NCBI RefSeq assembly: GCF_029962835.1
Contig: NC_080574.1
Location: forward strand, 23,472,001-23,536,000
Length of the DNA: 64,000 nucleotides
Origin: Magnolia sinica
Taxonomy: Eukaryota; Streptophyta; Magnoliopsida; Magnoliales; Magnoliaceae
Direction: 5' to 3'
The notes under the pieces were generated by a model. The model saw only the letters and a program-made list of their open reading frames with translations. It ran no database searches and was not told where the DNA came from. The number at the start of each line of letters is the position of its first letter. The first letter of the stretch is position 1. Position numbers and translations under genes: made by a program. This document shows positions 7,201 through 63,654 of the stretch, piece by piece.

Positions 7201-10200
7201 AATGAATACCTTTAGAGCTCTCCAAGACATGTATGGAACATATGAAGGAGTAACACTATCTGGGAAGCCCTCAGGTACCACATAAGATCTTACAAATGCC
7301 ATCAAATCCTGCAACATCATCAACGTCAATTCCAAGTGTCGGTCTTTGCATGCCAAAACTGTATTTGTGGTTCTTCCATTCTTTCTAAATCACATGAAAT
7401 AAAATTTATGGACCTAGCAATTCAAACAAATACTAACTTCTACTCTATCCAATACTACAAGAAATACACCAATGAATAGGACAGGACAAGAGGAGAAGTG
7501 CCATGAAAGAATGGACTACCCAAGTTACATGCATCAAATGAGATAAGTTGCATCTTGAAATAGGGTGCTAAAGCAGCCAGACAACCACTTGTTTTCTCAG
7601 GATTACCTCTTGGGTGAGGAATAACTGGATGCCATAGAGGTGATATCCAGGGGCGGCTCAACATTTTTGGGGGCCTTAGGCAAGTCATAAAAATGAGGCT
7701 TTTAGTTTAAAAAATAAAATAAAATAAAATTAATAAATTCAAAATTAAACCATAAATTTGCTTCTTGCCTTTTTAAATGCAAAATTACTAATTAAACTTT
7801 TGTATTCAAGTTTACCCAATAAATCAGTTTCGATAAATAAAATTGTTAAACCGTTTAATCTATCTTGAGACATAATTGTTGGTAAATAATTTTTTATAAT
7901 CTTTAGTTTTGAAAAACTTCTTCCTGCAGATGCAACTGTAACAGGTATGGTAAGTAGTACACCAATGAAGAGCACAGGACGAGGAGAAGTGCCATGAAAG
8001 AATGGACTACCCAAGTTACATGCATCAAATGAGATAAGTTGCATCTTGAAATAGGGTGCTAAAGCAGCCAGACAACCACTTGTTTTCTCAGGATTACCTC
8101 TTGGGTGAGGAATAACTGGATGCCATAGAGGTGATATCCAGGGGCGGCTCAACATTTTTGGGGGCCTTAGGCAAGTCATAAAAATGAGGCTTTTAGTTTA
8201 AAAAATAAAATAAAATAAAATTAATAAATTCAAAATTAAACCATAAATTTGCTTCTTGCCTTTTTAAATGCAAAATTACTAATTAAACTTTTGTATTCAA
8301 GTTTACCCAATAAATCAGTTTCGATAAATAAAATTGTTAAACCGTTTAATCTATCTTGAGACATAATTGTTGGTAAATAATTTTTTATAATCTTTAGTTT
8401 TGAAAAACTTCTTCCTGCAGATGCAACTGTAACAGGTATGGTAAGTAGTATTCTATATGCAATAAAATAATTTGGAAAACAATCTAGTTCTTTTATTAGA
8501 TTAAGTATTTCAATTGGAGTATTAATTTCTGTTTTTGCAACTTCTTTTAAAACTTTTAATTCCGAAAATAAATCCAAACTGTTAGAAAAATGAAGTTAAA
8601 ATTTAATTTAGAAAAATGACATCAGAATTTAATTTTTTGAGACCTTAAATAGCAATAAAGTAGGTAGTTGTGGTCCTAGGTTTTAGGAGAAGAATTTATT
8701 GGGAATGATGCTATTATTTTGAAAAGAGACGGTAGAGTTAGACTGTTACTATTGATAGTGCTAGTTTCTAGGATTTGTTTTTTATTTTCGATGTCAAATT
8801 TGTAAACTAATTTTTAGATGTTCCTATTTTGTAGGCCTTTCAATAAGTTTTATTTCAAAAAATTTAGGCTTTTTTTTCTTCTTCTTAATTTTAATTTTGC
8901 TATAATATAGGACCTTCATAATTAAGAAATTTTAATTTTGCTATGATATAGGGCCTTCATAATTAGGGGGCCTTAGGCGATTGCCTCACCTGCCTACCCC
9001 TTTGAGCCGCCCCTGGACTGATAGCAAAATGGATACCATTCTATCAAAAGACCAAACTATCTGCAGGTTCAACGTAACAAATAGCATAAATGACTAACCC
9101 CCCAAAGGTCTCAATATGAAATTAATAGGGTTAATGGGCATGTCAAAATGAAGATGAAAAATGGTTAGAGAAATAGATTATCTAACAAATGTGTGGGCCA
9201 CCTGACGAGTGGCCCAGATTTATTTTTTGCCAGGGCTTACATGACTGCCAAAAAAAAAAAAAAAACACATGAATGGGCAATGGACCCAATCATGTAAATG
9301 CATGTGATGTTGTCTCATGCTCCTCAAGTCACCTCCTCAATCTTTACTGTTGGGGATCACATGAGACACGACTAGATCTTCCACATCACTAGTTTTTTTG
9401 TCGCAGCAATTCACCGTCCGCACCCACACCATCAAGGTAAGGATCTTTGACATCATTAGTCGCCAGTCTCCCTCTTTCAACAGAAGGGAAGGGAAGTCAA
9501 ATCTAATGCTAACTAGCTCCTGTGCGTCAAAACTCCTTCCCTTTCTAAAACGACCAAGAACTTTGTGAGTCGCCCTCATCAGATTCTTTCCCCATTCCCA
9601 TCATCAGGTTATCCCTCCCTACAGTGACAAAAACTCAATAATGACAGCTTCGGTTCAGAAAACGCAATCTCCCCTCTTCCAAACAACATATCTTTTAGAC
9701 ATGCTAACTTGAGAACTAGTCAATGTGACATGCTGTCTCATTTTCGATATCCAATGGTACTGGTCCGAAGCGTCACAAAAGAGTATGGTTCTTGTCAAAC
9801 AAGAGAACCCAATCACACCATTGAAATCGCATCACCACATTACTCCACTTTGGGGTCTCGTTCATTATCAGGAAAGTTGAAGGAACACAACGCACAATCT
9901 AAGGGAAGCGAGATCTTTTTTCCTTTTTCTTTCTCAATGTCATGAAAGTGAGGCCATCACCAATAGAAGAAGATCAAATCCCAATTTTTTTCAATGTAGC
10001 AACAAAATAGAAAGGAAAAAAAAGAAGGAACAATAATTGATAATTGCAACTATACAAACCAATAAATGAAACTAAAATTTACTACGGATAATTGCAACTA
10101 TACAAACCAATAGAAATGAGATTAATGATAAATAAACTACAGATACCAAAAATGAAACAAAAACAACTAAAATTACGTACAGCGGATGAAGAAATGAAAC

Positions 10201-50919: not shown

Positions 50920-53900
50920 TCATATAGATTTTGTGATGAGTTCTTGCACCATTGATGTGTTTGGAAGGGCTGGAATTGCTCCCTTCTGTGTTGTACAGAT
51001 CGCGCCACAAGCATTTGCCAGTTTCAAAGCTTCCCTTAGCTTAACTTCATCCTGTATATATATATATATATATATTAAGAAGGGCAAAAACACAAAAATA
51101 CCACATTGTAAATGAATAGACCGTGCAGGCATTGCACACTTAAGATTGTGATATACTGGGTCCAATCATTGGTTGGTGGGCCGTCACATAGTATCTCCCA
51201 AACTAGATGATCCTAGCCATCAATGAAAATTGACAATTACAGTTAGCGTCTACTTCATTTAATGGGGACTCATTGGAAGCTAGGTCATCTGATGGTGGAG
51301 AATTCAGGGTTCTCCCATATGAAATTTGGGCCAAACTGATGAATAATTTGGATTGGGATCACCAGAAGGTGTGCCAACATGAACAGTTTGTTAGACTAAA
51401 CAATAAAAATCCATACAGAACTGTAAAACAACATGTAATTCAAGAGAGGGAAAAAAAACCTTATAAAGAGAACCATCTTTAGCCAGAGAAACAAGAAGAG
51501 AGCCAACAAAAGCATCACCAGCTCCTGTCGTGTCCACCGTCTTGACGGAAAATCCTTCAACTTTTCCTTTAAAGTCCTAGAACCATATAACACCACCCAA
51601 GAAAAAAGGAATTTATAATCAAGATATAAACTAGAGATTCTCGTGAAAAATTGATAAAAGTCTACCAACGATATAATAATGAATGAGATGAAACAAAACC
51701 TTTGTAAAGTATCTGCACCCCTTCTTGCCATCAGTGACTACAAACAATTTCAATCCATCAAACCACAATGACAGAACAACCTCTTCCTTTTCGGGATCTC
51801 CGTTTGTTAGGAAAGCGATTTCATCGCTACTAGCCTGTGGTAAGATTAAATAGTATTAGTTTTTAATAAACACCCTTTAAAAGTAGTCCAAATCTTATAT
51901 CATTGGCACATTTGGATGCCCTATCAAATTGAATTGCAACCAATGATTAATCCAATAATGTAGAAATAACCAAATTGGAGTTTAGTTACTTAGCATACGC
52001 AGCATAGTTTAAAAACTTAAAAAATTTAATGATGTCTAGTTGGGTTGGGTTGACTCGAAGGCATCGATAAGTCATTACTCTACTCAACTCGATATTAATG
52101 AATTAATTGTTAGAAAAAAGTGTTGGATATATCGAAAATTAAAAAGAAATAAAATAAATCTCAATAATTTCGTTTCGCTAGGCCGAATCACGTAAAATGA
52201 TATGATGTCCTTAAAGCATGATTTGCCCCTTTTATCAATTGCTGATGGGTTACAGACGAATTGCTTCCAGGATAAAACAAGCCTATTTGGATCCGGCGTG
52301 TAGTAATCACGATAGGTCCACTTAGGAACAATTCAACACAGTAGATCTGTTCTGGCAAAATCAAACAGTGCAGAATATTCTATAAAGGAGATCTGAAGAA
52401 TCTAATGGAATGGGAGATATTGGGGTTGAGTTGATGATTTTTGGACCGGAATGGTCCAATTTATATCGGCACCTCGGAGTGAATCATTGCTAGGTGGTCA
52501 TCAATGGTTCAGAATGTTTGAAAAATGTTTCTGACTGTTGATCATTAATTCTAGCCATTTCTGGTCGTTGGATCGGAAGATCTGATCGTTGGATCATTAT
52601 GGCCCGTTTGTTTTTGAACCGTTGTGGCTTTTAAGACAGCTAGCCGTTTTTAGATTTATTATCCGACTGTTCTCAGTCGCCTATAAAGCCCTGACTCATT
52701 TTAAACCCACGAGAGAGTGACTACTCTGCGACACGATGTGCACGTGTGAAGTACGCCAACTAGCGCCACTATAGTCACGCTGCCCACGCCCTCGCCCATA
52801 CCAGAGCCTGAGCATCTCCATCTCCAAAACATCCAAGTAAGAATATTACACACACATTCACATATATACTCCAAAATCATTTTTAAATTTCTGATGTGGG
52901 ACTAAAAGCATACACCGCACTTTTTCATTTGAAATTTTCGAAAAATGTTTTGGTAGCAAATTCCCTAAAATTTAAAAATTTGAATTATTTTTTCAAAAAA
53001 CCATAAATTTCAACATTAATTAATATTATTTATGAATATTAATCCGAGTGACTAGATTCGAGTCGTGTTGAGTCGAGTTGAGCTGACCGAGTTGGTGAGA
53101 CTTGATAAGTAATGCTAAGTTGAAGCCGAGTCGTAGGCTTACAACCGAGTTTCATAATGATTAAACTCAAGTTATGAGTCGAATTAAACTAGAAACAAGA
53201 AAATAAAATCAATTAACCTTGATAAAGTCAGCTTCTGTCCAAATGCTCTTAATTCCTTCGCGAGCGGCATCAGCTGATGGCCACAGCGGCAATCTAACAT
53301 TGGGATCGTATGAGAGAAGCAGGCCAGCTTCTTTCGCGGCCCGCATTGCAGCCAAGTGGGCCGACCGGCACGGCTCAGTGATTAAGCTTATCGATCCATA
53401 GTGAAAGATCTTTGCCTGTTGGATGAGATCCAAATTCAGCTCTGATTCCTTCAGCAGCATGTCAGCACTTGGATTTCGATAAAACATGAATTCACGCTCT
53501 CCGTTGCTCTTCAACGTCACGAATGCAAGTGCAGTCCTAGCGTCAGGGTCAAAGCATACGCCATCACCGTTCACTCCATTTTTCTTCAAGATGTCCACTA
53601 ACATATGCCCAAATTCATCATCTCCAAACTGAAATACAAGGAAAGAATATTGGAGGGTGGACAACATTTTAAACATATAACGGTTTTAATTTTTATTTTC
53701 TGCAAATATGTCACTTCAGTGGAAAATCCTAGCCTTGAAAAAAGTGGAGCATATCATGAAGATCACATGAATCAATATTGGAACAGTAAAGTCATTAGGT
53801 GGGCCACATACAATGCACTGTATTATGGGTAAAAATGGACGGACTAAAGAGAAGAGGTTAGCTCGGAAATCTTTGCAGGACACGAGGTCGGTTGCGCCGG

Positions 53901-56014
53901 TCATGACTAAGGATCTTGTTAATGACTAAGGAAGATCTCATCCGTTGAAGAGAGGTTGGTCACGTACTACGAATGAAGGTAGGTTGGCCGTTTACCTGAT
54001 GATAAAGGGGAGGCTCAAAGTTCATTCGAGTATCCAAGTCGGTCAAGACTACGTCGGACTCTTGAGCTTGACCCCTTACAACATATTTCATTTAAATTTT
54101 ACTACGGAGATGAGCTCAGCTTTACTACCCTAACACAAGGTACGAGGGCAAGTTGGTAGGTCAACAATCTCTACAGCATATAGAAAAGGGTCAGGGCTTG
54201 CTAGATAGTTTAGGTCGATATACTAAGTCCCTAGTCAAGTCAGCCTCGGCCTCTTACTATACAGTAGTAGCCGGAGCCTCCTTTGTCTTCTTCCCATGCA
54301 ATTATTCGATAGTCTAAAAAGGATGGCCAGATTTTTACATCAGGACACTACATCGTACCATTCACTATACATTCATTTCAAGAGGGTATATTGCCTGATG
54401 AATAGGCCATTCGCAATCCAGACCACCTTTTGCACTGCTCGGATGTTATATGAACAACTGACAAGTCAGCAGAGAAACACATGTGGCACTGATGTATACT
54501 GTCCAGACCATCCAAATTGTGGTACCATTCTAGATGAATGGTATCTCTAAAATCTAAGGGTTGAAGCAATCCTAACCATCCAAGTAAAATCTATCACATG
54601 AATGTGTGACTGCTCCAGATCCGAAGGAAAAAAAACAGGAGAAAAAGACCAAAAAAAGAAAAAGAAAAAAGAACGGTTGTATTGGACCCGATTCATATAC
54701 ACCACCTGTTTTATGCAGTTTTGTAAAACGTCCAACTGCTACTGTGAGGAGGGACATCCATTCCGTCCATCAGGTGATCCACTTAGTACCCGGTGACAAA
54801 AATAAGCTCGTTCCACAACCCAGGTGGGCCACACCAAAGGGAACAATGGAGAGGGGATGCGGTTTGGCTGGTGACCCCAACACCAGCCAGCTAGCTAGTG
54901 TCAAAGTTCTGTGGGCTCCACCATGATGTAGGTTTTTATTCATGCCGTCCATCCATTTTACCAGCTCATTTTAGGATATGATCCTAAAATAGAAGTATAT
55001 CCAAAGCTCAAGTGGACCACACCACAGAAAACAGTGGGGAAAACAATGTGTGATATCATGAACATGTTGGATGGCAAATAAACATCATGATCTATCCTCA
55101 GGAAGGTTTCAACGGTGGAAGTCATTGTCCCCACTTCTTTCCGTGGTGTGGTTCACTTGAGATTTTTCTCTGCTTAATTTTTGGTACCACCTCAAAATGA
55201 GATGAAAAAACGGATGTACAGCATGGATATACAGCACATTCATCAAGGTGGGCCCCACGGTCAGGGTAACACCAACTAATGTGTTACCCAAGCAACAACT
55301 AATCCGGTCCGCTGATTTTTGAATACTCGCTAACTCTTAATCATCGATTTGGTACCACCAATTGGATGGTTAGGATTGATGGACCAGTGCGACTTGATCT
55401 ACGGTCAGGGTCCAAGCGGCGGTGAAACACAACGGGAGTCATGACAACGGTCCTGCCACCCGCATAAGATGTGTCATGCTAATTCCAAGCTCACATCCAC
55501 ATGCAAGCACGTGGCAATAGGGATACATGTGTGAAATATAATCAGTGCGACGCCTTGTCCCAGGAAGTTCCTGCGCTCAGAAGCTTAGGTGGGGTCCACC
55601 GTGATGTTTATATGTCATCCAAACCGTGGGGTGCACTTCGAACCGGTAGAAGCGTGGAACCGGATCGAATCGTTGGATCGGTCCGGTTTGGTTCGGTTCT
55701 AGACACCATCAGTTCTGGTTTCGGTTCCAAAATTTTGAGAACGGTTGGATATGGATCTCCGGTTTAGGGCGTGTAGAATCTAACCGAACCGTTGATCCAA
55801 ACCGTAGATCCGAATCATCGATCCGAACCTTAACTTTAAAATCAAAAAAAAAAAAAAAACCCCCTGAATATCTAATCTCTCTAGCCCGACTGTTGCCGCC
55901 CCTGCCCTCTCTCTCTCGCCCTCTCTGTGGCCGTGCGGCGCCCTCTCTCTCTCTCTCTCACCATCTCTGGCGCCGCACCTCTCTCTCTCTTACCGTCTCT
56001 GCGGCCGTGCGGTG

Positions 56015-56050
<36 letters not shown>

Positions 56051-57437
56051 AAATGGAGTTCTGGGGTAAGCAATCTCTCCTTCCATTTAAGTTCTTTCTC
56101 CTTTCATTTCGGATCATTTGATTTCTAGGTTTTGTTTTTGGTCCCTCTGTTCCTTATTCATATGTTAGTGTTTTCCTTCATCTTCCGATTTTCAATTGCT
56201 AGGGTTTCTTTGACTACAATTCTTTCAGACGCTATTTGTTGGAGTTTGATAGGAATATATGTTCATGCAACTACTCTGTTTTTAAAGAATCTCATTTTTG
56301 GCATGCAATGATGTTGTTGTTTAGGATTCTGGGGTAAGCAATCTCTCTTCTCTTTATTCTCAGATGGAGTTCTCAGAGTAGCCCAGAACCGTGAAACCGA
56401 TTCAGAACCGAACCGTTTTTCACAGTCCGGCTCCGGTTCGGTTCTAGGGTGCTAACGGTCCGGTTATGGTTCCAAAAATTGTAAAACCGTTAGGAACGGT
56501 TCGGTTCCGATTTCACCCCAGAACCGGACCAAACCGACCCGTGTGCACCCCTACTTCGTAAGGTCATTCCTATGAACTAAAAACACAACAAGATTAGCTT
56601 GATCTCCACCAATGTTTCAATTTCACTGTTTCCTGTCGTGGGGCCCACTTGCGTTTTGGATCTGCCTAATTTTCGGGCTAATGTTCTAAAATGATCTGCA
56701 AAAACGGATGGACAGAGCAGATCCTAAAAACATCACGGTGGGCCCCACCTAGCTTCTGAGCGCAGAAACGTCCTGCGACAGGGTGTGGCCGGCAATCTGC
56801 ATCACTAGCCGTCGATTTATTCCGCAAGTTGTGGCGCGCCTGTGTATGAGAAGCTCAAATCCCGGGTGCACATTCCCACACGTGTTTTTATGTGTGGGTG
56901 GCCGGCAGCTCGCGTGTGGAATTTAGCAAGCCTTTATTGAAACTTAATCAAAGCCAGAGACGATCTGAACCGTCAGATCCTTTTGCACATGACCCGCAAA
57001 TCAATCACGATCCTCCCAAAAGCACAGTAGCTAAAAGCGATGGCTTACATCTTTTGCTGCTGCTACGAAAAACACCCAAGTGATGTGGGGTCCTCCATGC
57101 TATATATGTAAATCCGCTCCATCCATCAGGTGGGAATCCATATTTCAACCATACATACAAAAGATCAGACAGATAAAAGACTAACATAGGTCACACCAAC
57201 GAGACTAACATGGCCCACCTTTCCAATAAATGCGGAGCTGCCACCGAGCTTTGCGATGGCGACAGCTACATTGGCAGGGGCCCCACCAGGAGCTTTGATG
57301 AATCCCAACGACTCCGCTAGAGAAAGCCCAGCAACATCTGGAACGAAATCTATCAGCATTTCACCGAAAGATACAACCAATGGGTTTTTCATCTCACATG
57401 CACTGATTCCATCCACATTCTTCTCTGAAATCGTCAT
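50920..57437 (-). CDS. FRK: Fructokinase (pfkB carbohydrate kinase)
   Basis: Five exons on the minus strand: 57437-57219, 53628-53218, 51834-51700, 51576-51460 and 51051-50920 (with stop). All are phase 0 with GT-AG introns, giving 337 aa, the usual plant fructokinase length. Reaction: ATP-dependent phosphorylation of fructose to fructose 6-phosphate after sucrose cleavage. No transit peptide is evident, so it is probably cytosolic. Substrate-binding N-terminus: [13 protein letters not shown] (21-33) and [16 protein letters not shown] (51-66); [12 protein letters not shown] spans the exon 1/2 junction; the C-terminal pfkB signature [14 protein letters not shown] (270-283) carries the catalytic Asp276. 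Intron 1 (3.6 kb) and intron 2 (1.4 kb) are enlarged by repeats. It is convergent with CLPX. Which FRK isoform it is cannot be decided from sequence alone. Confidence 0.96.
51835..53217. other. Fructokinase intron 2
   Basis: Non-coding, AT-rich. Segments near 52030-52090 and 53050-53150 share GAGTTGAGTCGAG-like words and may be decayed inverted ends of an element like that at 11564, but the match is weak. Confidence 0.4.
54880..55300. mobile_element. Palindromic TIR element (family P) in fructokinase intron 1
   Basis: Left motifs: CTGTGGGCTCCACCATGATG, CCGTCCATCCATTTTACCAG, AAGTGGACCACACCACAG. Right motifs: CTTTCCGTGGTGTGGTTCAC, ACTTGAGATTTTTCTCTGC and AAGGTGGGCCCCACGG. Imperfectly palindromic, non-coding. 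Confidence 0.75.
55628..56552. mobile_element. GGGGTGCAC-ended TIR element carrying a gene fragment
   Basis: Ends GGGGTGCACTTCGAACC and GGTCGGTTTGG-type sequence finishing GTGCACCCC, with long CCGGTTCGG/GAACCG-rich subterminal arms (55640-55800 and 56390-56545). 925 bp. The centre (55880-56380) has a different composition: CT-rich 5' UTR-like sequence, an ATG and an intron-like stretch, suggesting captured host DNA. Confidence 0.75.
55870..56380 (+). pseudogene. Captured 5' fragment of an HD2-type histone deacetylase gene (putative)
   Basis: A (CT)n-rich leader leads to ATG GAG TTC TGG G at 56053-56065, immediately followed by GTAAGC. This encodes MEFW plus the first base of a Gly codon, then a donor site. 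Plant HD2 (HDT) proteins begin with the conserved pentapeptide MEFWG. The following sequence is T-rich and contains CTAGGTTTTG, as in a first intron. TTCTGGGGTAAGCAATCTCT recurs at 56327 and ATGGAGTTCTC at 56364, so the captured piece is partly duplicated. Nothing downstream of the first exon is present, so no protein is made. Confidence 0.5.
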
Positions 57438-57540
57438 CCTTTGTATAAACAGAGAGAGATATCAGAGACTGTTGAGAGAGAGAAGAAAGGAAAAAGAGTT
57501 CAAATAGGAAGAAGAGTGTAAGTGGATAATTAATAAGAAG

Positions 57541-61741: not shown

Positions 61742-62900
61742 TCAGATGGATCCGACACCTCGATCCCCAAAGTGGTCATGAAGAGTTTTTTTCAACCAGT
61801 CAATACGGCGCTCAGGTCGCAGACTCACAAAGAACGACGCTAGTTCCTTATCCTTGCTCAAGAGCTGACCAACCTCAAAAAACTCTGAGTTAGTCAGACC
61901 CTCGACCTCTTCTAGTACATCAAGTACTTTGGAAGTACGATTTACCAACTTCCCGAGGCCAAATTTGAGCATTGAATCAACGACAGTTTGCAGAGACGCC
62001 CCTAGTACGTCACAGGGATGAGGATAGGGCGATCGTTTCTTTCCTGCGCTCCCACTTTGAGTAGCATTGGTATCAGCTGTGTGAGTCGGAGTGCTACGTG
62101 AGCCGTGTTGTCCTATCGAAGGACTGTCAGGCGAGAATGGGATGGTCCCTGTAGACTCTGTGCCATAATCATTTGACAAGTCAATTGTATCGTCTATATC
62201 ATCATCCACCTCTCTCCATGCATCATTAAGTTCTCGTTGAATGCGAGATGATGATGCTGATGCAGCTATACTCCTACTGCCGTGGACATATCATCCCGTT
62301 GCCTGGTCCGAACCGACGATCATTGCAAGATCATCCATTCTCTCAATCCGTTTCCCGCGCAGTCTTTTCGCACGCGGGTGAGACTGCAGCCGTACAATCA
62401 GCAGTTGTAAGTATAATATGCGAGTTAATAACACATTATATGGCGGAAGCAGTATATTTCGAAAACCATACCTTAAGATATTCCTCCCAGACTTCATCGG
62501 GGGCCGTAACCACCATCCACTCACTGTCCCATCCAAACCCGCTAGCCGCTAGCATATCCTTTACTGCAGTGTACTCCCTCTTGTAATACCTTAGTCGACT
62601 CGACACATTCTGCCATCTGAGGACTATATTGGTATGCTTTGTTACGGCTTTTGCGACAATTTGATACGCCTCACGTTTGAAACCATTATCACCCTTGCGT
62701 CCTAATGCCACTTGTTCCAGAAATATATCAATTATAACCTGATCCATGTCGGGAGTCCATTTTATTTTTGGGGCTCTGGACGCAGGCTCGGCCAGGGATT
62801 TCACCGTCTTCGTGCGTGGGGAAGATCGTGTAGGCACCACTGGTATCTTAACCGGTGAATGTGTTGGTGTTAATGGATCATCAAACACCCGGTCTGCCAT
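61742..62900 (-). pseudogene. Myb/SANT-like DNA-binding protein (PIF/Harbinger-associated type), one in-frame stop
   Basis: Exon 1 is 62900-62472 (143 codons, donor AAG|GTATGG) and exon 2 is 62383-61742 (acceptor GCTGCAG). Residues 48-145 form a Myb_DNA-bind_3 domain with its Trp pattern (KWTPDMDQVIIDIFLEQV, RWQNVSSRLRYYKREY, GFGWDSEWMVV, DEVWEEYLK), continued in exon 2 by SHPRAKRLRGKRIERMDDLA and IVGSDQATG. A TGA at 62293-62291 then interrupts the frame. Beyond it the same frame is open for 182 codons to 61742, with a Ser/Thr/Asp-rich linker and a C-terminal tail (VGQLLSKDKELASFFVSLRP) like those of L10-interacting/Harbinger-associated Myb proteins. Such proteins bind transposon ends or act as domesticated regulators. 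It could be a pseudogene, a truncated 173-aa protein, or a stop polymorphism. Confidence 0.8.
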
Positions 62901-63654
62901 ATCACCTGAATATCAAGTACATATGATGATTTACAACTGTCAACTATAATTATAAGAATGACAACTATTTAGAAATCACGATTAACAAAATCATCATTTG
63001 GTATCTCCATATAATGAATCTACGTAGTCAGAAGTTGGAAGATTCCAATTCCATTGTTAACTACGTAATGTTCTCCAAATATAAATAACAACAAGTCACG
63101 GAATTTGTAACATTTAACGAGCAATTATCTACTCCTACTATTTTTAAGGGGGCAGAGATCTGGCCGTAGAGATGGTGGAGCAGACTGTAAAGGACATTGT
63201 AGTGGGGACCCAGCCAACTTTAAAAAAAAATAGAAAAAAAAATGCACTGCAAATCTGACGGGAGGAACACAATAGCATGGACCACCCCACAGAGTTATGT
63301 AAGAAAGATTGGAGAAGAGGGAATAAATACAGGACAGATTGGACGGACAGAGAAGAAATCCTATTGCACATGTATATTAGACCTGGTTTAGAACCCATCG
63401 CAGCCAGCCGGACAGGCGAACTCCAAATCGGAGGGCCTATTTCGCTGGAAACCATAGATATGCACTAGATGCATAGAAACCCTTCATGGCGGCTTCCAAT
63501 GCTATAGAAATCATCAATATCTGGAACATGCAAGACATATGCACAGACCAGAACAGCGTCTCATGCAGATCATGAGTGGAAGAAGACCTACCTTAGGATG
63601 AGTAGACCCTCAGCTCGCGATGGCAGTCGAACGATGAAGATGGCCATCACAACC
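62901..63654. other. Upstream region of the Myb/SANT gene
   Basis: No further exon is recognised. AT-rich sequence, a poly-A tract at 63222-63242, and no obvious TATA element at the usual distance. Confidence 0.4.

Follow-up and report, generated by a model that had tools for sequence, protein, structure and literature searches.

A hAT-type element with a captured gene start

The window analysed here is a 64,000-nucleotide stretch of the Magnolia sinica genome (NC_080574.1, positions 23,472,001 to 23,536,000). Within intron 1 of a fructokinase-type gene on its minus strand, between PfkB exons, lies an antisense, non-autonomous element of the hAT type, 926 bp long (55628–56553) and with TAGGGGTGCAC ends, whose interior holds the start of an HD2-type histone deacetylase gene. 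At this length it is too short to code for a transposase. Very probably, the element acquired by template switching about 310 bp from the start of the C19 HD2 gene (leader CT tract, 13-bp exon 1 and the first 265 bp of intron 1) and then spread, and it is now most likely an inert passenger. It is directly established which gene was the source, that the capture happened once, that 8-bp duplications flank the sister copies, that the element spread to four places and that the window copy is nested in an older repeat. The element is composed as follows.

55628–56553, plus strand: non-autonomous element of the hAT type bearing the captured start of an HD2 gene, delimited by terminal repeats and, at three sister copies, by perfect 8-bp target site duplications (TSDs)
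55628–55850, plus strand: left arm, terminal repeat and GAACCG/CGGTTC subterminal repeats (arm-only matches genome-wide)
55851–56016, plus strand: end of an A-run and GC-rich, CT-rich block, from the transposon family and not from HDT (55870–56030 matches other elements)
56017–56052, plus strand: (CT)n tract with the final bases ahead of the ATG, where transposon CT meets donor CT (the C19 gene match starts here)
56053–56065, plus strand: captured HD2 exon 1, ATGGAGTTCTGGG, encoding MEFW and the first base of codon 5, identical to C19:36859916–36859928
56066–56330, plus strand: first 265 bases of captured HD2 intron 1 (95.0% identity to the donor over 278 bp from the ATG)
56327–56347, plus strand: second partial copy of the exon 1/intron 1 junction (TTCTGGGGTAAGCAATCTCTC), joined at a common TTCT
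56348–56377, plus strand: third partial copy, leader end and ATGGAGTTCT, then the right-arm junction
56378–56553, plus strand: right arm and right terminal repeat (GTGCACCCCTA); most right-arm matches begin at query 751–758
56554–56561, plus strand: right copy of the target duplication, CTTCGTAA, recognised from paralogous insert-free sites

The end sequences GGGGTGCAC (at 55628) and GTGCACCCC (at 56543–56551) each lack a second copy in the window. From left to right, the interior runs from the GAACCG/CGGTTC arm through an A-run, the GC-rich CT block, (CT)n, ATGGAGTTCTGGG at 56053–56065 with GTAAGC directly after it, and T-rich DNA to two partial copies of the exon-1 region. The original prediction, made from the letters of this stretch, of a terminal inverted repeat (TIR) transposon carrying the start of an HD2-type gene is supported by the unique ends, by ATGGAGTTCTGGG with its GTAAGC and by the C19 source. 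The partial internal duplication that it described was likewise found, with pieces of the exon-1 junction seen again at 56327 and 56364. Its left limit was correct, whereas the right limit moves from 56552 to 56553, the final TA being part of the terminal repeat. In agreement with the different composition claimed for the arms, their GC contents are 0.47 and 0.54, as against 0.61 in the CT leader and 0.37 in the captured part. The CT-rich leader, which had been read as a host gene 5' end, is so only for the CT tract from about 56017. We place the start of the HD2 part in this tract because 55870–56030 is transposon-family DNA, matching 10 of 26 other elements (one of which, locus L054, is an HD2-bearing sister), and because the DNA upstream of the donor ATG matches it almost solely through CT repeats. 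An HDT origin of the whole CT leader was rejected, since the GC-rich 55851–56016 belongs to the transposon family. In the window, no Rfam family reached threshold and ARAGORN found no tRNA.

The source is an HD2 gene on C19

A search of the genome (1.84 Gb, 127 contigs) with 55628–56552 gave 76 matches among the best 40 of 2393 candidates scored. These comprised four full-length elements (window copy included), one match to query 390–703 only, and others to arms or CT repeats. The partial match aligns window 56017–56330 with C19:36859880–36860193 at 95% identity. Used alone, the 327 bp of 56051–56377 had exactly five matches (5 of 5 candidates scored; E from 1.5e-166 to 4.2e-121), namely the four elements and C19, and a chance match to MEFWG was rejected on these grounds. 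The pattern ATGGARTTYTGGGGTRAG occurred six times genome-wide, in the four elements, at C19 and in an HD2 paralogue on C1.

The Pfam NPL profile (PF17800) matched six places in the genome, one of them at C19:36868416–36868799, on the same strand and 8.5 kb downstream of the C19 exon 1. In the predicted splice, exon 1 (ATGGAGTTCTGGG) is in frame with GTGTTGAAG..., which follows a CCAG acceptor 8.5 kb away, to give MEFWGVEVKAGEPVKCQPGENKYI. The joined peptide reads MEFWGVEVKAGEPVK, with VEVKAGEPVK contributed by exon 2, and so contains the octapeptide MEFWGVEV, an N-terminal HD2 signature (PMC9968887). Its N-terminus matches the nucleoplasmin-like domain (PF17800, 4.1e-19), and its best PDB matches are HDT1 (E 1.8e-31; chain 7vrr starts MEFWG), HDT3, HDT2 and HDT4, with FKBP53 and FKBP43 ranking lower. 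Because the joined peptide best matches HDT1, the donor is an HD2 gene, whose first exon, under the predicted splice, is tiny. The locus thus agrees with the original prediction of an MEFWG exon followed by a first intron, and its 95% identity exceeds the 80% across ATG and intron 1 of an HDT locus that had been set beforehand as a test of capture. The donor CT tract is 34 bases long and ends 6 bases before the ATG. For the C-terminal C2H2 zinc finger of HD2 proteins, a loose pattern had no match in seven stretches (~69 kb) around the donor, where the downstream exons are unmodelled.

Two other HD2 loci were rejected as sources. The C1 paralogue has a MEFWG exon ending in GTAAG and shares only 43 bp with the cargo, around exon 1. 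The C11 locus is a partial duplicate in which no exon-1 match was found. This segmental copy of the C19 HD2 gene (C11:28710000–28725000, L058/L059) is 95.5% identical over 2.35 kb and 93.6% over 1.07 kb, and has one TAG in the NPL frame.

One capture and four insertions

The captured stretch is present in five places of the genome: in four elements (window, C9, C14 and C2:15.88 Mb) and in the C19 gene. Compared from the ATG onwards (at most 278 bp), the window copy is 95.0% identical to the donor, C9 93.5% and C14 92.4%; the element at C2:15.88 Mb reaches 95.7% over 257 bp, with a 21-base gap. Seven substitutions relative to the donor are common to all four elements, their scrambled 3' junctions are identical in kind, and the ATG and splice donor are intact in 4/4. 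The three sister copies are flanked by perfect 8-bp target duplications, GTTACAAG, CAAGGCAA and CTTCGCAC. Because the four elements have scrambled junctions and seven substitutions in common, their comparison argues for a single HD2 capture that later spread to four places by transposition. Only 13 HD2 coding bases were taken; the remainder is leader CT tract and intron. Contrary to both outcomes against which the original prediction had guarded, the HDT match extends well past 13 bp, and in related elements the same arms enclose other interiors.

Insertion into an older repeat within the fructokinase intron

The surroundings of the element are as follows.

57165–57461, minus strand: reading frame with fructokinase exon 1 (PfkB), the exon-1 peptide scoring over the PfkB cut-off
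53209–53685, minus strand: reading frame with fructokinase exon 2 (PfkB), over the cut-off
55547–56789, no strand assigned: older inverted-repeat element with arms at 55547–55612 and 56725–56789 (inverted repeat 85–93%), inside which the hAT element is inserted

The location in a fructokinase intron had been predicted correctly. A further frame at 51391–51576 is over the PfkB cut-off, and the PfkB match at 51634–51855 is below it (E 0.0044). In a genome search with the joined flanks, 31 of 73 rows, among the best 40 of 4302 candidates scored, cover query 60–125 and thereby the junction at 81. Five insert-free copies of the surrounding repeat were fetched, and the site is visible in four of them (e.g. 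CCAAACCGTTCGTAAGGTCATTCC); the site pattern had no match in the fifth (L088). At the window copy the junction reads CCAAACCGT immediately followed by GGGGTGCAC; missing are the left TA and the greater part of the left target duplication. A simple TSD scan there found no convincing pair, which the insert-free sites explain by an apparent 8-bp deletion of most of the left duplication together with the first two bases of the element.

The older inverted-repeat family is abundant: the window contains many pieces related to it, and a first look across the genome gave 4302 candidates. Elsewhere in the window, a 491-bp unit is present twice in tandem at 7465–8450 (99%), and a minus-strand frame at 62439–62912 encodes a Myb/SANT-like DNA-binding domain (PF12776, 2.9e-20). 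The adjoining frame 61745–62290 resembles At2g29880_C, below cut-off.

Classification and comparison with known systems

The 8-bp duplications of the three sister copies, all of them perfect, are hAT behaviour; the window copy keeps the right side only. The terminal inverted repeats are short, with an end motif, TAGGGGTGCAC, that we take to be hAT-like. Mutator elements, including Pack-MULEs, have 9-bp TSDs and long TIRs, and such an origin was rejected on the 8-bp TSDs and short ends. The Pack-MULEs of rice are TIR elements that capture gene fragments; our element resembles them in this capture but differs in being of the hAT type.

According to the packFinder rule, a Pack-TYPE element has a BLAST match of more than 50 bp, with E <1e-5, to an entry of a coding sequence (CDS) set (PMC8903248). 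The Pack-type capture claimed in the original prediction stands in that host-gene DNA from an identifiable locus lies between the TIRs, 95% identical to the C19 HD2 gene. With 13 contiguous HD2 coding bases the element would fail the formal rule, judged by their length and not by BLAST against a CDS set. We therefore class it as a gene-capturing hAT of the Pack-hAT type, outside the formal Pack-TYPE group.

The Pack-hAT and Pack-TYPE elements of maize and rice likewise have non-autonomous hAT ends around copied host-gene DNA and at times lie inside genes (PMC8903248). Our case differs in that the HD2 piece, made up nearly wholly of intron and leader, would escape a CDS-based detector, and in that a CT tract stands at several of our cargo borders. 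Similarly, Ds2 and Ds-l4 of maize (the latter ~1 kb) are hAT elements with variable filler, including some gene pieces with introns (PMC3260210). Gene capture by hAT elements is called rare in the same paper, with gene fragments in 2 Ds2 and 9 Ds-l4 elements, whereas at least 4 of 17 interior kinds in our 27 elements are gene-derived. Animal Pack-TIRs, among them hAT-N8_XT with 291 bp of the CAPSL 5' untranslated region, likewise include multi-copy hAT captures from a gene 5' end with distinct TSDs, and microhomology and template switching have been proposed for them; CT-tract pairing is not met with in the accessible part of that paper (PMC8277862).

A family of elements with different cargos

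We fetched 31 loci with arm or full matches. In 26 of them the target duplication has two mismatches or fewer (perfect in 17); L029, L042, L043, L046 and L052, which lack such a duplication, were later left out. Together with the window copy, this gives 27 elements with 17 interior kinds: HD2 (4 elements), antisense intronless BTF3-like (3), RPA2-like (3), L027/L037 (2), a short form (3) and 12 singletons. At least 4 of the 17 kinds are host-gene pieces, namely HD2, RBOH, BTF3-like and 2OG oxygenase. Pfam matches of the cargo peptides were to NAC/BTF3 (4.5e-21), respiratory-burst NADPH oxidase with EF hands (2.2e-12) and 2OG-Fe(II) oxygenase (7.6e-6); the peptides of L032, L038, L040, L045 and L028 had no Pfam match over cut-off. 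The label RPA2-like reflects a reading of the peptide by eye.

The intronless antisense BTF3-like coding copy in L030, L039 and L051 looks like a retrocopy taken up by a DNA transposon, and the end of this cargo matches six more places (five at 96–98%, one at 79%). The RPA2-like cargo of L044, L103 and L104 is composite: one piece matches C18:7362386 (98%) and the next C4:32833054 (97%), and therefore one element joined two loci. In L031, L095 and L096 the cargo consists of a 2OG-oxygenase exon (C13, 89%) and a second piece (C9, 91%). The interior of L057 encodes what reads, from the peptide alone, as a reverse-transcriptase-like sequence of a copia-type retrotransposon.

CT tracts at cargo boundaries

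For ten cargos a candidate source was located with no element arms in the source flank that was read. The source has a (CT)n tract at the left boundary of HD2 (34 bases), L038 (16), L045 (36) and L044 (26), and at the right boundary of L028 (49), that is, in 5/10 cargos and at 5/16 boundaries examined (10 left, 6 right). No CT tract was present in the sources of L033 (RBOH), L031 (2OG oxygenase), L032, L035 and L037 at the boundaries examined, and the idea that all captures proceed via CT tracts was dropped on account of these five. Such cases have short common stretches at the boundary, e.g. TCTAAAT at L033. CT tracts, counted with 10 bases beyond, take up 0.43% of the window's oriented positions; in 12 stretches fetched from the surroundings of HD2 and other NPL loci the share is 0.23%. 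That 5 or more of 16 boundaries would have such a tract by chance has a probability of 6.2e-9 at a rate of 0.43%, 8e-5 at 3% and 8.6e-4 at 5%.

Two further CT runs were left out of the count. The C4 RBOH source (L067) has a CT tract of 36 bases ~500 bp upstream of its captured piece, and the RBOH capture could conceivably once have begun there. The two equal candidate sources of L035 have a 9-base CT run inside the cargo.

Several points weigh against the capture scenario or its link to CT tracts. The window copy is missing most of its left target duplication, and half of the located cargos lack a boundary CT tract, so that CT pairing is not the sole route. The background comes from the window and ~119 kb of other stretches and not from gene leaders, which are possibly CT-denser. 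The sample was picked by similarity to the CT-bearing window element, and the boundary test was set up after the first cases were known. In addition, the count leaves out the right boundaries of L044, L032, L035 and L037, and L031 is a composite whose first bases have no matching source, leaving its left boundary not clean.

The boundary tracts suggest template switching between CT tracts, and we regard their excess as a strong lead, not proof. We lean slightly towards the view that the (CT)n of this family acts as a capture port, which would break or stall, pair with the (CT)n of host genes (in leaders and introns) and copy the adjoining gene DNA, so that the microsatellite would decide which genes are sampled, possibly with a bias to gene starts. 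A literature search of partial coverage found no report, by title, of CT-tract-guided capture by hAT elements.

Proposed mechanism of capture and alternatives

Copying would have occurred inside the element, while it was being repaired or its replication had stalled. An end carrying the element's own (CT)n would pair with the (CT)n just upstream of the HD2 ATG, copying would run into HD2 intron 1, two back-jumps would follow via short common stretches (TTCT and TCTCTC), and the copied strand would rejoin the right arm. A putative hAT transposase made elsewhere would then move the element, the window copy inserting in the older repeat within fructokinase intron 1 and most likely persisting as an inert passenger. 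The proposed switching is similar to what template-switching models assume for animal Pack-TIRs (PMC8277862), and the case also resembles the filler-bearing Ds-like elements of maize (PMC3260210).

Alternatively, two neighbouring hAT insertions around the HD2 start could have been mobilised as one unit and later rearranged, a fusion model described for plant Pack-TYPE elements (PMC8903248; PMC13317346). We consider this unlikely here. The captured piece starts in a CT tract that element and donor both have, and at its far end the exon-1 junction occurs three times in scrambled form with short sequences in common, as template switching would leave; this junction fits the fusion model of PMC8903248 less well. 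Moreover, the arms of the window element match just 25 bases (84%, E 0.03) in the 69 kb around the HD2 gene start.

It is more doubtful still that the captured fragment is functional, either through small RNAs that would silence or tune the HD2 gene or as an alternative leader or splice donor. The 92–96% identity of the four copies to the donor would fit such a role, as would the intact ATG and splice donor of all four, but the capture did not reach upstream beyond the leader's CT tract, exonic overlap with the HD2 message amounts to 13 coding bases and a CT repeat, and the element is antisense to fructokinase. Acquisition of exon 1 by the HD2 gene from the transposon family, a direction that sequence identity alone would leave free, has a negligible probability, since the C19 match is without arms and within an HD2 gene of conserved first exon, the C1 paralogue and HDT1 have the MEFWG start as well (in C1 with only the 43-bp cargo match around it), and other family members lack the HD2 interior.

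Significance

How cut-and-paste transposons gain pieces of host genes is still disputed, with gap repair, template switching during replication and fusion of neighbours under discussion. Within one genome, this family offers many captures whose sources can be identified, and breakpoints can thus be read on both partners. Detectors built on coding matches would miss captures that consist mostly of leader and intron. If it is true that CT tracts guide capture, the choice of genes would become predictable and testable.

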